Origin: Kitasatospora cheerisanensis KCTC 2395
GTDB lineage: Bacteria > Actinomycetota > Actinomycetes > Streptomycetales > Streptomycetaceae
NCBI RefSeq assembly: GCF_000696185.1
Contig: NZ_KK853997.1
Coordinates: forward strand, 2,046,761 to 2,110,760
Reading direction: 5' to 3'
Length of the DNA stretch: 64,000 nt
In this document: piece by piece, positions 45,843-51,622 of the stretch
Position numbering within the stretch: position 1 is the first letter of the stretch
How the letters are laid out: each line of letters opens with the position of its first letter
Translations under genes and position numbers: made by a program
Notes under the pieces: model-generated
Database searches by the model: none
Seen by the model: only the letters and a program-made list of their open reading frames with translations
What the model was told of the DNA's origin: nothing

Positions 45843-47048
45843 CTACTTGCGTCCGCGCCGCACCTTTCCGAAGCGCCGCCGCAGGTCGTCGTGCGGCAGG
45901 AATCCGGCCCACCGTTCGGGGTACTCGCTGGGCGGGGCCTCGTCGTCGTCCTCGTCGAACAGTTCCTCGTCGTGGCCGTCGGCGAGGCCGAACTGGCGGG
46001 TGCGTTCGGCGCGTTCGGCGGCCCGCCGGGCGGCGGCCTCGCGGCCGCGCTGGACGGCGGCGTCCTCGCTGAGGCGCTCGACCTCGGCGCGGGCGTCGGC
46101 GGTCTCGACGGCGGGCCAGCGGCGGTCTATGGCGGCGTTCATCGCGGCGCCGATCAGGACGGCCAGCGCCACCACGAAGATCCACAGCAGCACGGCGACG
46201 GGGGCGGCGAGCTGCCCGTACACGGAGTGGCCCTCGACGGAGCTGATCAGGTAGAGCCGCAGGGCGACGCTGCACACCACCAGGACCAGCAGGGCGACCA
46301 GCGCGCCGGGGATGTCCTCGCGCCAGGGCGTGCTGACCGGAACGGCGACGTGGTAGAGGGTGGTGAGGAAGACGATCAGCAGCAGGATCGCGGCCGGCCA
46401 GTACAGCGAGCTGATCACGCCGGCCCAGCTCTGGAAGGTGTTGATCAGCAGTCCGGGCCCGGTGACCAGCAGCGGCAGCACCAGGGAGCCGATGACCAGC
46501 GCGCCGAGGTAGAGGCCGAGCGACATCAGCCGGGTCTTGACCAGGCCGCGTTTGCCGTCGAGGCCGTACATGACGGTGATGGTGTCGATGAAGATGTAGA
46601 GCGCGCGGGAGCCGGACCAGAGCGAGAGCAGGAAGCCGATCGAGATCAGGTCCGGCCGGGCGCTGCCGAAGACGTCGTCGAGCAGCGGTTGGACGATCTG
46701 GTCGATGGAGCTCGGTGAGAGCACCGTCCCGGATGCCGAGACGATGTCCGCCTTGAGCCGCACGATGGTGCCGGCGCCGAGGATGTCGTCGAGGTAGCCG
46801 AGGGTGCCGGCCAGGCAGAGCAGCAGCGGCGGGATGGAGAGCAGCGTGAAGAACGCCGCCTCCGCCGCGAGGCCGGTGACGCGGTACTCGACGCAGGTGT
46901 TGGTGGTGTCCTTCACCAGCGCCCAGAGGGTCCGGTACCAGGTGGTTCGCTTCGCGGCGCGGCGGCGGCCGCCGCGGCGGCGGGCGGGCCGGTCGACGGC
47001 CGGTCCGGTCCCGCCGGGTGGATGCGGAGTACTCCCTGCTGCTTGCAC
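45843..47048 (-). CDS. YihY/BrkB-family inner membrane protein
   Basis: 401 residues with about 6 membrane helices. Family elements: RVTGLAAEAAFFTLLSIPPL, SRALYIFIDTITVMYGLDG, LYWPAAILLLIVFLTTLYHV and a last helix LLWIFVVALAVLIGAAMNAA. A charged C-terminal tail (DEELFDEDDDEAP, then basic) is cytoplasmic. Once called RNase BN; now considered a transporter-like or envelope protein of uncertain role. GTG 47048 is the start with the family-like basic N-terminus. Confidence 0.88.
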   Translation of the reverse strand: MQAAGSTPHPPGGTGPAVDRPARRRGGRRRAAKRTTWYRTLWALVKDTTNTCVEYRVTGLAAEAAFFTLLSIPPLLLCLAGTLGYLDDILGAGTIVRLKADIVSASGTVLSPSSIDQIVQPLLDDVFGSARPDLISIGFLLSLWSGSRALYIFIDTITVMYGLDGKRGLVKTRLMSLGLYLGALVIGSLVLPLLVTGPGLLINTFQSWAGVISSLYWPAAILLLIVFLTTLYHVAVPVSTPWREDIPGALVALLVLVVCSVALRLYLISSVEGHSVYGQLAAPVAVLLWIFVVALAVLIGAAMNAAIDRRWPAVETADARAEVERLSEDAAVQRGREAAARRAAERAERTRQFGLADGHDEELFDEDDDEAPPSEYPERWAGFLPHDDLRRRFGKVRRGRK

Positions 47049-47184
47049 GCCCCTACGGTATCGGCCCGCACTCCTGGACCGATGCGCCGCCGCCGGGAAC
47101 TGACGGGCCGCAATGCGCGGAGCGGCCCGGCATCGCCGAGTGTCCCGAGATGCGGAACACCAAGGTCCAGGATTCGGACGTTAG

Positions 47185-47214
47185 TGGACCGCGAGTCGCT
47201 CGCCGTGCGAATCT
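47185..47214 (+). promoter_or_regulatory. Promoter of the sulfur operon leader
   Basis: -35 TGGACC (47185-47190), 18-base spacer, -10 GAATCT (47209-47214), then 6 bases to ATG 47221: a leaderless transcript beginning with the leader peptide. Confidence 0.5.
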
Positions 47215-47220
47215 CTTGCC

Positions 47221-47304
47221 ATGTCTAGCGCCGGAACCACCCTAGTTGGCCGACTCCACGTCGACCTCCTTCGCGTGTCCAGCGCCATCTGTCCGGTGAC
47301 CTGA
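47221..47304 (+). CDS. Cys-containing putative leader peptide of the sulfur operon
   Basis: A 27-residue ORF with core RLHVDLLRVSSAICPV. The H-V-D-L-x-R-V-S-S-A-x-C pattern matches the actinomycete family annotated as putative leader peptides upstream of sulfur-assimilation genes. Its single late Cys codon (TGT, three codons before the last sense codon) suits a ribosome that pauses when Cys-tRNA is scarce, opening the downstream RNA. It begins 274 bp before the sulfite reductase start and lacks a ribosome-binding site (leaderless). Regulatory effect is inferred from the family and position. Confidence 0.75.
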   Translation: MSSAGTTLVGRLHVDLLRVSSAICPVT

Positions 47305-47419
47305 GCCCCACTCGCACGCCGCCACCGCACCGGCGCCCTGCTCGCCCATCCCCGCCGTCGCGGATGCGCGCACCACCGACCCCGGCCCAGCGTCACCCTC
47401 CCGCCGCCTGCTGATCTCC

Positions 47420-47470
47420 GCAGGTGGGAGCGGGGGCGTGCCCGGGAACCGTCTGCACCCTCGCACCTGC
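47420..47470 (+). promoter_or_regulatory. Candidate attenuator hairpin before sulfite reductase
   Basis: GCAGGTG (47420-47426) can pair with CACCTGC (47464-47470), enclosing a GC-rich segment (GGGGGCGTGCCCGGG), 24 bases before ATG 47495. It is placed to respond to translation of the leader peptide. By-eye pairing only. Confidence 0.4.
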
Positions 47471-47494
47471 CAAGCCGCTCAAAGGACTGACACC

Positions 47495-49218
47495 ATGGCC
47501 CGCACTCCCGAAACGGTCGAGCCTCAGGCCGGCGCCGCCCCCGCGGCCCGCCCGCCGCCCGCAAGGTGACCCGCCACCGCGGCGAGGGCCAGTGGGCGAT
47601 GGGGCACTTCACCCCGCTGAACGCCAACGAGCAGATGAAGAAGGACGACGACGGTCTCAATGTGCGGACACGCATTGAGACGATCTACTCCAAGGGCGGC
47701 TTCCAGTCGATCGACCCGGCGGACCTGCGCGGCCGGATGCGCTGGTGGGGCCTGTACACCCAGCGCCGCCAGGGCATCGACGGCGGCCGCACCGCGATCC
47801 TGGAGCCGCACGAGCTCGAGGACGAGTACTTCATGCTCCGGGTGCGCATCGACGGCGGGCAGCTGACGACCGCTCAACTGCGCGCCATCGGCGAGGCGTC
47901 CGAGCAGTACGCGCGCGGCACCGCCGATGTGACGGACCGCCAGAACGTGCAGTTCCACTGGGTGCGGATCGAGGACGTCCCGGCGATCTGGGAGAAGCTG
48001 GAGTCGGTCGGCCTGTCCACCACCGAGGCCTGCGGCGACTGCCCGCGCGTGGTGATCGGCTCGCCGGTGGCGGGCATCGCCGCCGACGAGATCATCGACG
48101 GCAGCTGGGCGATCGAGGAGATCAACCGCCGGTACATCGGCAAGCCGGAGTTCTCCAACCTGCCGCGCAAGTTCAAGACCGCGGTCTCCGGCTCGCCGCT
48201 GCTGGACGTGGTCCACGAGATCAACGACATCGCGTTCGTCGGCGTGGTCCACCCCGAGCACGGCCCGGGCTTCGACCTGTGGGTCGGCGGCGGCCTGTCC
48301 ACCAACCCGAAGCTCGGCGTCCGGCTGGGCGCCTGGGTGCCGCTGGAGGACGTCCCCGAGGTGTGGGCCGGCGTGGTCGGCATCTTCCGCGACTACGGCT
48401 ACCGCCGCCTGCGCAACCGGGCCCGGTTGAAGTTCCTGGTCGCCGACTGGGGCGTGGCCAAGTTCCGCCAGGTGCTCCAGGACGAGTACCTGAAGCGGGA
48501 GCTGACGGACGGTCCGGGCCCGGAGCAGCCGGCCGGGCGCTGGCGCGACCACGTGGGCGTGCACCCGCAGAACGACGGCCGGTTCTACGTCGGCTTCGCG
48601 CCGAAGGTCGGCCGGCTGAACGGCAAGCTGATCCAGCAGATCGCCGACCTGGCCGCCGAGCACGGCTCGGGCCGGCTGGCGACCACCGTCGAGCAGAAGC
48701 TGATCGTGCTGGACGTCGAGCAGGACCGGGTCGACTCGCTGGTGGCCGGCCTGGAGGCGCTGGACCTGCGGGTCACGCCGTCCACCTTCCGCCGCGGCAC
48801 GCTGGCCTGCACCGGCATCGAGTACTGCAAGCTCGCGATCGTCGACACCAAGGACCGCGGCCGTACCCTGATCGACGAACTGGAGCGCCGCCTGCCGGAG
48901 TTCGACGAGCCGCTGAGCATCAACATCAACGGCTGCCCGAACGCCTGCGCCCGGATCCAGACCGCCGACATCGGCCTGAAGGGCCAGCTGGTCACCGACG
49001 CGAACGGGCAGCAGGTCGAGGGCTTCCAGATCCACCTGGGCGGCTCGCTCGGCTTCGAGAACGCCGCGTTCGGCCGCAAGATCCGCGGCCTGAAGGTCAC
49101 CAGCGCCGAACTGCCCGACTACGTCGAGCGCCTGCTGCTCCGCTACCAGGCGGACCGTCAGGACGGCGAGCGCTTCGCCCAGTGGGCGGTGCGGGCCACC
49201 GAGGAGCAGCTGTCGTGA
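47495..49218 (+). CDS. sir: Assimilatory sulfite reductase (ferredoxin type), N-terminal frame broken near 47555
   Basis: The open frame from 47566 carries nearly the whole enzyme: KVTRHRGEGQWAMGHFTPLN, the substrate-binding RQNVQFHWVRIEDVP, TTEACGDCPRVVIGSP, and the siroheme/4Fe-4S ligands CTGIEYC and NGCPNAC. It reduces sulfite to sulfide with six electrons. The natural start is ATG 47495 (AGGA 8 bases before), MARTPETVEPQAGAAPAAR, which reaches a stop at 47567-47569 in its own frame. One missing base in the C/G run 47548-47562 would join it to RKVTRHRG. GTG 47566 has no ribosome-binding site. First enzyme gene of the operon. Confidence 0.9.
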
Positions 49219-49391
49219 GTGAGCGCGCTGCACCGTTCTACTGCCCGTACTGCGGGGACGAGGACCTGCGGCCGTCCGAGGGCGGCCACGGCGCCTGGGA
49301 GTGCCGGGCCTGCCGCCGGGGCTTCCGGTTGAAGTTCCTCGGCCTGTTGTCGACGACCGACGGGGGGACCGGACATGACGACCGCGACTGA
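49215..49391 (+). CDS. Small zinc-ribbon protein in the sulfur operon
   Basis: 58 residues; GTG 49215 overlaps the sulfite reductase stop (GTGA) and the end overlaps cysH by 17 bp. Two Cys pairs, FYCPYCGDEDL and WECRACRRGFRLKF, form a zinc ribbon. A protein of this kind sits between sir and cysH in many actinobacteria; its role is unknown, perhaps a metal or redox helper for the reductases. Confidence 0.8.
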   Translation: MSERAAPFYCPYCGDEDLRPSEGGHGAWECRACRRGFRLKFLGLLSTTDGGTGHDDRD

Positions 49392-50073
49392 CTACGAGGC
49401 GGCCGCGCTCAAGGCCGGCCGGGAGCTGGAGGAGGCGTCCGCGCAGGAGATCCTGCGGTGGGCGGCCGACACCTTCGGCAAGCGGTTCTGCGTGACCTCC
49501 TCGATGGAGGACGCGGTGGTCGCGCACCTGGCGTCGACCGTGCTGCCCGGCGTGGACGTGGTGTTCCTGGACACCGGCTACCACTTCCCGGAGACCATCG
49601 GCACCCGGGACGCGGTCGCCGCGACCATGCCGGTCAACGTGATCACGCTGACCCCGAGGCTGAGCGTCGCCGAGCAGGACGCCGAGTACGGGCCGCGGCT
49701 GCACGACCGCGACCCGGACCTGTGCTGCTCGCTGCGCAAGGTCGAGCCGCTGAACCGCGGCCTGGGCGGCTACGACGCCTGGGCGACGGGGCTGCGCCGC
49801 GACGAGTCGCCGTCCCGGGCGAACACCCCCGTGGTGGCGTGGGACGCCAAGCGCCGCAAGGTGAAGCTCGCCCCGATCGCCCGCTGGACGCAGGCCGACG
49901 TGGACGCCTACGTGCAGGCCAACGGGGTGCTGCTGAACCCGCTGCTGTGGGAGGGCTACACCTCGGTCGGCTGCTCGCCGCTGTCCTGCACCGCCAAGCC
50001 CGGCGAGGGCGAGGCGGGCCGGGCCGGCCGCTGGGCGGGCTCCGGCAAGACCGAGTGCGGCATCCACCTCTGA
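49375..50073 (+). CDS. cysH: APS/PAPS reductase
   Basis: 232 residues. The nucleotide fold has FCVTSSMEDAVVAHLA and FLDTGYHFPETIGTRD; the catalytic C-terminus is ECGIHL. The Cys-Cys of DLCCSLRKVEPL and a second Cys pair in TSVGCSPLSCTAKP are those of the 4Fe-4S type that reduces APS to sulfite. The second pair is spaced C-x4-C here, whereas C-x2-C (GCxPC) is usual. ATG 49375 follows GGGGGGACC. Substrate choice (APS or PAPS) is open, because cysC is also present. Confidence 0.92.
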   Translation: MTTATDYEAAALKAGRELEEASAQEILRWAADTFGKRFCVTSSMEDAVVAHLASTVLPGVDVVFLDTGYHFPETIGTRDAVAATMPVNVITLTPRLSVAEQDAEYGPRLHDRDPDLCCSLRKVEPLNRGLGGYDAWATGLRRDESPSRANTPVVAWDAKRRKVKLAPIARWTQADVDAYVQANGVLLNPLLWEGYTSVGCSPLSCTAKPGEGEAGRAGRWAGSGKTECGIHL

Positions 50074-50120: not shown

Positions 50121-50687
50121 GTGACCACCGCCGACACTCCGGCAGCGGCCCGTGAGCGGGGCGCCACCGTGTGGCTGACCGGGCTGCCCAGCGCCGGAAA
50201 GACCACGTTGGCGTTCGCGCTGGCCGAGCGGCTGCGCGCCGAGGGCCACCGGGTCGAGGTGCTGGACGGTGACGAGATCCGCGAGTTCCTCTCCAAGGGC
50301 CTCGGGTTCTCCCGCGAGGACCGGCACACCAACGTCACCCGGATCGGCTTCGTCGCCGAGAAGCTCGCCGCGAACGGCGTCAAGGTGCTCGCCCCGGTGA
50401 TCGCCCCGTTCGCCGACTCCCGCGCCGCGGTGCGCGAGCGGCACGCCGCCAACGGCACCGAGTTCCTGGAGATCCACGTCGCCACCCCGGTCGAGCTCTG
50501 CTCGGAGCGGGACGTCAAGGGCCTGTACGCCAAGCAGGCGGCCGGCGAGATCTCCGGCCTGACCGGCGTCGACGACCCGTACGAGGCCCCGGAGAAGCCG
50601 GAGTTGCGGCTGCAGACGCAGGGCCGGTCGGTGGCCGAGTCGGCCGGCGAACTGCACGCCTTCCTGACCGAGAGGGGCTTGGCATGA
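50121..50687 (+). CDS. cysC: Adenylylsulfate kinase
   Basis: 188 residues. P-loop GLPSAGKTTLAFAL, then LDGDEIREFLSKGLGFSRED, NVTRIGFVAEKLAANGVKVL and VKGLYAKQAAGEISGLTGVD, all standard for APS kinase, which phosphorylates APS to PAPS. GTG 50121 follows AGGAG at 8 bases. ATGA overlap with cysD. Confidence 0.95.
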   Translation: MTTADTPAAARERGATVWLTGLPSAGKTTLAFALAERLRAEGHRVEVLDGDEIREFLSKGLGFSREDRHTNVTRIGFVAEKLAANGVKVLAPVIAPFADSRAAVRERHAANGTEFLEIHVATPVELCSERDVKGLYAKQAAGEISGLTGVDDPYEAPEKPELRLQTQGRSVAESAGELHAFLTERGLA

Positions 50688-51622
50688 CCGTCACCACCCA
50701 GCGCCTGGACCGGGCCGCGGACAGCCCGTACGCGCTCTCGCACCTGGACGCCCTGGAGGCGGAGTCGGTGCACATCTTCCGCGAGGTGGCGGGCGAGTTC
50801 GAGCGGCCGGTGATCCTGTTCTCCGGCGGCAAGGACTCCATCGTGATGCTGCACCTGGCGCTGAAGGCGTTCGCGCCCGCGCCGGTGCCGTTCGCCCTGC
50901 TGCACGTGGACACCGGGCACAACTTCCCCGAGGTCATCGAGTACCGCGACCGCACCGTGGCGCAGCACAACCTGCGCCTGCACGTCGCCTCCGTCCAGGA
51001 GTTCATCGACCGCGGCGTGCTGCGCGAGCGGCCCGACGGCACCCGCAACCCGCTGCAGACCGTGCCGCTGCTGGACGCCATCGAGTCCGAGAAGTTCGAC
51101 GCGGTGTTCGGCGGCGGCCGCCGCGACGAGGAGAAGGCCCGCGCCAAGGAGCGGGTGTTCTCGCTGCGCGACGAGTTCGGCGCCTGGGACCCGCGCCGGC
51201 AGCGCCCCGAGCTGTGGTCGCTGTACAACGGCCGGCACGCGGTCGGCGAGCACGTCCGGGTGTTCCCGCTGTCCAACTGGACCGAGCTGGACGTCTGGCA
51301 GTACATCGAGCGGGAGAAGATCGAGCTCCCGGAGATCTACTACGCCCACCGCCGCGACGTGTTCAAGCGCGACGGCATGTGGCTGACCGCCGGCGAGTGG
51401 GGCGGCCCGAAGGACACCGAGACGGTCGAGAACCGCCTGGTGCGCTACCGCACGGTCGGCGACATGTCCTGCACCGGCGCGGTCGACTCCGACGCCGACA
51501 CCATCGAGGCCGTGATCGCCGAGATCGCCGCCAGCCGCCTCACCGAGCGCGGCGCGACGCGGGCCGACGACAAGCTGTCCGAGGCCGCCATGGAAGACCG
51601 CAAGCGCGAGGGGTACTTCTAG
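50684..51622 (+). CDS. cysD: Sulfate adenylyltransferase small subunit
   Basis: 312 residues. PP-loop FSGGKDSIVMLHLA, LLHVDTGHNFPEVIEYRD, and the signature FGGGRRDEEKARAKER. With CysN it makes APS from sulfate and ATP. Start ATG 50684 overlaps the cysC stop. Confidence 0.96.
   Translation: MTVTTQRLDRAADSPYALSHLDALEAESVHIFREVAGEFERPVILFSGGKDSIVMLHLALKAFAPAPVPFALLHVDTGHNFPEVIEYRDRTVAQHNLRLHVASVQEFIDRGVLRERPDGTRNPLQTVPLLDAIESEKFDAVFGGGRRDEEKARAKERVFSLRDEFGAWDPRRQRPELWSLYNGRHAVGEHVRVFPLSNWTELDVWQYIEREKIELPEIYYAHRRDVFKRDGMWLTAGEWGGPKDTETVENRLVRYRTVGDMSCTGAVDSDADTIEAVIAEIAASRLTERGATRADDKLSEAAMEDRKREGYF

Follow-up and report, generated by a model that had tools for sequence, protein, structure and literature searches.

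A leader peptide with a single, almost always UGU, putative sensor cysteine codon ahead of sulfur genes in Kitasatospora and other actinomycetes

The 64,000-nucleotide stretch of the Kitasatospora cheerisanensis KCTC 2395 genome analysed here (the window) carries, upstream of the sulfur genes sir, cysH and cysD, an ORF of 27 codons and a stop (translated as MSSAGTTLVGRLHVDLLRVSSAICPVT*) which, on sequence grounds, is a real leader and belongs to a known family of actinomycete leader peptides (Table 1). Two properties of these leaders had been missed by the preliminary description of this DNA: their sensor is probably one Cys codon, almost always UGU, and their central motif is kept at the amino-acid level in leaders standing before many sulfur genes. 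While the family is already known, what looks new here is that the sensor appears to be one codon and that this codon is UGU. No description of the UGU rule was found among the results listed for such leaders, for the rule and for these families by name, in literature with few subscription papers, which is not proof of absence.

Table 1. Features of the leader region and of the genes behind it, in window coordinates
Feature	Position	Strand	Basis or remark
GTCC-N7-GGAY palindrome upstream of the promoter	47165..47179		possible regulator site
-35-like GTGGAC	47184..47189	+	19-nt spacer to the -10-like hexamer
-10-like GAATCT	47209..47214	+	ends 6 nt before the ATG; leaderless signature
Leader peptide ORF, NF042934 member	47221..47304	+	translation, profile score, conservation
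R-L-H-V-D-L-L-R motif, profile positions 6-13	47251..47274	+	residue conservation with synonymous change
Putative sensor Cys codon TGT, profile position 19	47290..47292	+	TGT in 146/146 class, 16/17 further, 79/79 sir and 8/8 own-genome leaders
C-rich, G-poor spacer, candidate Rho-loading region	47305..47494	+	C 48%, G 28%
MFE hairpin 1, CCGCCTGC / GCAGGTGG	47404..47427	+	minimum-energy fold
MFE hairpin 2, GAGCGG / CCGCTC, abuts the sir Shine-Dalgarno	47428..47480	+	minimum-energy fold
sir Shine-Dalgarno AAAGGAC	47481..47487	+	read from sequence
sir region	47495..49218	+	ATG 47495 as in relatives; core frame 47566-49218
cysH	49375..50073	+	NF002537 over cut-off
cysD	50684..51622	+	TIGR02039 over cut-off

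The assignment to the family, already proposed in the preliminary description, is borne out by the NCBIfam profile NF042934 ("putative leader peptide"; cis_reg_atten), a protein model that is silent on codon and mechanism. The window leader matches it over its full length, at all 19 profile positions, with 39.8 bits (E 2.4e-10) against a cut-off of 27. Its match to the Ms4527A profile NF042936 is weak (E 3.5e-4, 20.1 bits, below the cut-off of 45) and does not make it a member of that family. As far as the available sources describe them, the mycobacterial polycysteine leaderless sORFs and Ms4527A resemble the window leader in a leaderless-type start, which for the window leader is predicted, in their position ahead of sulfur genes and in a Cys close to the stop, but they carry a run of Cys codons where the window leader has a single one. 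The related polycysteine leaders of M. smegmatis are reported to be cysteine-responsive attenuators (Canestrari 2020, as cited in the accessible parts of PMC9031893 and PMC13236596). Cys-run leaders of mycobacteria, Propionibacterium and Bifidobacterium were predicted in 2005, without terminators and with Rho suggested (PMC1262725), in a paper whose accessible text names no Streptomyces cys leader. In their available parts, Shell et al. 2015 (PMC4633059) and Smith et al. 2022 (PMC9094748) have mycobacteria as their subject, and none of the eight leader peptides in the S. lividans reannotation carries a cysteine label (PMC8079986).

The leader peptide is matched in 40 of the 41 genomes of the genus (E<=0.001, own genome included) and is 100% identical over 27 amino acids in 11 of these 41, again with the own genome. 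At the same threshold, a class-wide search gave matches in 144 genomes out of 197, spread over 66 of the 91 genera. A draw from the whole phylum gave matches in 9 of 119 genomes, the one outside the class being partial and below cut-off. The named sir loci, i.e. the best 80 of 442 confirmed candidates, are nearly all Streptomycetaceae by title; one of them (L090) has only 15 nt of upstream sequence and was not usable, and all 79 others hold the leader upstream of sir, with its ATG ten codons ahead of the first motif arginine in 78 and eleven in L119. The conservation of the peptide beside sir in relatives, on which the preliminary description had let its leader stand or fall, is therefore found, as is its place ahead of sulfur genes, a position shared with the polycysteine leaderless attenuators, which lie upstream of sulfur or cysteine genes. 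The own genome contains eight short ORFs with the leader motif, three of them above the NF042934 cut-off and five under it, with 11.8 to 26.2 bits. This set was chosen for a short ORF plus the motif among 11 examined out of 20 matches at E<=10; the remaining three examined lie in long frames and look spurious. All the leader sets compared consist of related sequences.

Among the matches listed outside the own genome, hereafter the class leaders (147, with 141 distinct cores), profile position 19 is Cys in 146, from 95 genomes, and this Cys is encoded by TGT in every one of the 146; the match of the 147th (L256) ends at position 18, without Cys at its last matched position. The remaining Cys codons of the same leaders are TGC in 183 cases and TGT in 41 (18% TGT). 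TGT likewise makes up 31 of 402 Cys codons (7.7%) in coding sequence downstream in the class loci, 16 of 163 (9.8%) in the window and 128 of 1608 in the named sir loci. Fisher tests on TGT use gave p values of about 1e-102 and 1e-65, which are descriptive only, the sequences being related. Furthermore, a protein-profile search cannot favour either of two synonymous codons. A further set was taken from the phylum draw (17 of 30 rows, after exclusion of 5 from the own genome, 7 already counted and 1 short of position 19) and has TGT at this position in 16 leaders and TGC in one; the exception, L314, belongs to the polycysteine leaders and does use TGT for one of its remaining Cys residues. TGT also holds in all 79 named sir leaders and all eight own-genome leader ORFs. 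The Cys codon lies at most five codons from the stop in 134 of the 146 class leaders. The uORFC-8-2 motif before Rhodobacterales cysS, as described in the available text of PMC8632094, is likewise a leader that contains Cys codons and precedes a gene related to cysteine; unlike the window leader, it has two tandem Cys codons, mostly UGC, and an intrinsic terminator with a U-run.

Selective-charging theory accounts for the codons used in attenuation leaders by differences in charging between tRNA isoacceptors (accessible part of PMC1183508). A pattern search of the own genome for tRNA-Cys, which allowed a GCA or an ACA anticodon and which genes not fitting the pattern would escape, found two places, both with GCA. 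Because both tRNA-Cys genes found have this anticodon, the theory is inapplicable in simple form and isoacceptor charging was rejected as the simple cause of UGU; the synonymous choice is not what it predicts, since both Cys codons share one anticodon. The second of these genes (L309, 1469-1541) is divergent and without an encoded CCA. UGU might be merely the slow Cys codon, a plain rare-codon timer to which the peptide motif itself contributes nothing. UGU is rare here, and the leu leader of Salmonella became less sensitive when CUG took the place of the rare CUA (Carter et al., as reported in the accessible part of PMC1183508). Such a timer would, however, not need a motif kept as amino acids across paralogous leaders and cannot call simply on selective charging, so that we consider it rather unlikely.

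The motif behaves as a peptide would. Across the 141 distinct cores, positions 6, 9, 10, 11 and 13 are kept as amino acids whereas their codons vary synonymously: the arginines R6 and R13 never change, although 5 different codons encode the first and 6 the second, and V9, D10 and L11 show synonymous variation too. As codons vary while residues stay, the motif is kept as a peptide, and the independence of residue conservation from codons is that looked for in arrest peptides. Strong amino-acid conservation might also favour a peptide acting in trans as a small protein and not through its translation, for which peTrpL is a precedent (PMC7298713, in its available part). The conserved identity of a single codon is not required for action in trans, and copies of the leader stand before several target genes, which makes this explanation very improbable. 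The last block of the sir leaders is, in addition, conserved in its codons (GTC, TCC and AGC each in 79/79, GCC in 78/79). In the sir gene itself, used as a control, V, S, A or R is nearly invariant at 49 positions, and at 3 of these one codon reaches at least 97%; for His, Ile and Asp, codon use is as uniform in sir as in the leader and therefore uninformative. Because this last block is conserved in codons, an extra RNA- or DNA-level role of the last sir-leader codons is possible.

Upstream of the leader, the preliminary description had placed a promoter with transcription starting at the ATG. At the level of sequence, such a leaderless-type start is supported as a prediction: counted from the leader start, 75 of the 79 named sir loci have A at -11 and 77 have T at -7, giving the consensus nAnnnT that ends 6 nt before the ATG, and each of the -35-like columns -36 to -32 is conserved in 74-78 of these loci. 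A signature of this nAnnnT type is alike in S. lividans leaderless promoters (available part of PMC8079986). Class-wide, 71 of 145 leaders have nAnnnT 5-7 nt ahead of their nearest start, a number that rises to 97 when either of two leader starts is allowed; among the gene starts downstream, 11 of 142 have it. Shine-Dalgarno-like sites show the reverse, standing ahead of 11 of 145 leader starts and 65 of 142 gene starts, the latter being roughly placed. A generic sigma-70 scan called no promoter here, the -10-like GAATCT included. Taken as a -10-like hexamer at fixed distance, this pattern supports a leaderless start of the leader. Farther upstream, the palindrome columns -56 to -53 and -45 to -43 are conserved in 72-78 of 79 sir loci per column, and a further conserved TGGAC at -35 accompanies the palindrome in sir loci (47165-47189). 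The joint conservation of palindrome and TGGAC suggests a transcription factor acting in addition to the leader. By eye, the palindrome is absent before two other own-genome leaders (L032 and L034).

Cysteine-responsive control through translation of the leader, as advanced in the preliminary description, appears likely, with cysteine as the likely signal. As a mechanism we favour, with about an even chance of being right, a leaderless translated regulatory leader in which ribosome passage over UGU reports Cys-tRNA and Rho ends transcription when cysteine is plentiful. Transcription would start at or beside the leader ATG and the ribosome would translate the leader. Its passage time over UGU, which is codon 24 and stands three codons ahead of the stop, would report the supply of Cys-tRNA, and the nascent peptide LxxRxHVDLxRxxS in the exit tunnel probably aids a pause there. 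When cysteine is plentiful, the ribosome would finish and depart, and the bared C-rich spacer would allow Rho to stop transcription before sir; when cysteine is scarce, a ribosome parked over the leader end and the spacer start would allow the sir-cys operon to be made. The ORF, its conservation, the peptide motif, the UGU rule, the spacer composition and the lack of a terminator-like site can all be read from the DNA; from them we infer the leaderless start, the pausing, cysteine as signal and Rho as effector.

The spacer composition fits Rho-dependent termination, without showing it. Spacers after the leader stop have more C than G in 125 of 128 cases, with mean values of C 0.428 and G 0.279 against C 0.338 and G 0.346 on the upstream side of the leaders. 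In 135 of 145 class leaders, C exceeds G over the 60 nt that follow the stop. A C/G ratio of at least 1.3 is reached by 80% of the 79 sir spacers versus 13% of 187 other upstream regions. The first 110 nt of the spacer of K. cheerisanensis have a C/G ratio of 2.26, reached by 0.56% of 110-nt segments on both strands. A C-rich, G-poor spacer after the stop, as in Rho-dependent leaders, is thus present; this richness is no proof of Rho loading, and C is slightly in excess in the coding sequence behind the leaders as well (C 0.376, G 0.317). Some sir spacers are only 40-55 nt long, which also speaks against the favoured mechanism. In TnaC-type Rho-dependent leaders, a type suggested for cys leaders in PMC1262725, the signal is a bound amino acid. 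The window leader shares with this type the conserved peptide residues, a presumed stall near the leader end and a C-rich spacer, whereas its signal would be the lack of Cys-tRNA and the role of Rho is putative. PMC13236596, in its accessible part, classes the leaders of mycobacteria under translation attenuation rather than under Rho, which weakens the Rho-dependent reading.

The preliminary description also drew a hairpin at 47420-47470, and the inverted repeat does exist (GCAGGTG 47420-47426 / CACCTGC 47464-47470, a perfect 7 bp); as a switch, it is not supported. A classical transcription attenuator with its intrinsic terminator hairpin at this place would build on that repeat, which is not followed by a U-tract. 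No terminator-like site, hairpin with U-run, was found on the + strand within 46900-47700, and Rfam gave no match at E<=1 in the same interval. The minimum-energy fold uses other partners, the 300-nt leader region is no stabler than its shuffles (folding z -0.33) and the repeat is imperfect in some relatives. We regard such a terminator as extremely improbable.

A further explanation is translation attenuation, in which the leader ribosome would control a fold hiding the sir ribosome-binding site, with no early end of transcription. This type is the one named for the mycobacterial relatives in PMC13236596 and, in the window, MFE hairpin 2 directly adjoins the sir Shine-Dalgarno. One pair of this hairpin has changed on both sides in 7 of 19 Kitasatospora-type sequences (alignment A3, the window plus 18 of 21 loci first listed as such), a cell count reached by 0 of 500 shuffles. 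The number of pairs with both-sided changes in the hairpin set is, however, ordinary (391 of 500 shuffles are as high), the covariation score stays equal when the Kitasatospora-type helix set is shifted along by a single column, and MFE hairpin 1 has no both-sided changes in the 19 sequences. The corresponding upstream hairpin of Streptomyces has no covariation signal in 31 sequences (alignment A2, 31 of 37 loci with spacers up to 150 nt), and the RNAalifold covariation terms are 0.26 and -0.26. The covariation across relatives that had been proposed as a check on the spacer RNA is thus thin. RNAalifold does pair the leader GUCC with the Shine-Dalgarno GGAC in the 31 Streptomyces-type sequences, a pairing which tests nothing because the columns hardly vary. 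GGAC is found in the Shine-Dalgarno of 79/79 named sir loci, yet of 202 other gene starts 45% likewise have a C after GGA; leader pairing with the Shine-Dalgarno was rejected as a general switch, GGAC being common elsewhere anyway. Pairing between leader and spacer was rejected likewise, since duplexes with the own spacer are no better than with swapped or shuffled spacers (mean -21.7 for own versus -21.9 and -22.2 for within-clade swapped). When the leader was masked, 18 of the 79 loci gained over 0.1 in Shine-Dalgarno accessibility, which also speaks against such a switch. Close to the Shine-Dalgarno, a three-strand CCUGC/GCAGG/CCUGC arrangement noticed by eye was also set aside, with one covarying pair in the Kitasatospora type and no signal in the first Streptomyces hairpin. 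Neither an intrinsic terminator nor a leader-driven Shine-Dalgarno switch is established, and we hold translation attenuation to be possible rather than probable.

The gene directly behind the window leader encodes a protein of the ferredoxin nitrite/sulfite reductase superfamily that reaches no NCBIfam cut-off, so that the label sir rests on operon context; its best named relatives, among the best 80 of 442, are from Kitasatospora with 95 and 88% identity. The ATG at 47495, the sir start in relatives, follows the leader stop by a gap of 190 nt, and the sir ATG lies at nt 177-231 after the stop in 29 relatives from 30 loci fetched by the genus search (27 placed by pattern, L019 and L027 by eye from printed frames). 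Unlike in these 29, the window ATG is out of frame with the sir core by one base; the interval 47495-47566 may hold an assembly error or a real lesion, or sir may begin later, with a GTG at 47566.

Across the loci compared, where domains were assigned for ten fragments, the leaders stand before sulfurtransferase, sir, cysO-like, cysH-like, FMN reductase and cysteine dioxygenase genes, among others. In the own genome, where these genes were mostly judged by eye or from fragments, leaders precede sir, a ThiS-like cysO with cysteine synthase, a sulfurtransferase, an FMN reductase, an LLM-type monooxygenase (a fragment that stays under the Pfam cut-off), an acyl-CoA dehydrogenase-like gene, a cysteine dioxygenase and one gene not identified. 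A distinct leader type, RVHMDLxRYAGCxCRPSx, precedes cysteine dioxygenase-like genes in 13 genomes (L195, L226, L229-L231, L233, L235-L237 and L241-L244, with Pfam support for L237 only), and another own-genome leader (L037) stands before a cysteine dioxygenase-like gene which is Pfam-supported. Because cysteine dioxygenase consumes cysteine, a single sign of control is hard to square with these targets. In four genomes of other families (L203, L206, L234 and L245), the leader close to sir points the opposite way, to a divergent cysH-like gene assigned by cluster and eye. The leaders of L257 and L296 precede genes that cluster together and, because the L296 gene has a ROK-family domain, such leaders may control regulators as well.

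In the leaders examined, UGU is near-universal at the putative sensor position though the class genes prefer UGC here and the two tRNA-Cys genes found in the own genome share one anticodon. This suggests either that sensing takes place in the wobble decoding or that some further constraint is at work. We therefore tentatively entertain, at well under an even chance, a codon-gated arrest peptide in which LxxRxxVDLxRxxS would prime the ribosome and the G34-U3 wobble decoding of one Cys codon would decide, as UGC would not. If this were true, one element before many sulfur genes would make a regulon without a protein regulator. In any case, the leader together with its UGU codon offers a simple way to annotate the cysteine regulon in Streptomyces and its relatives.
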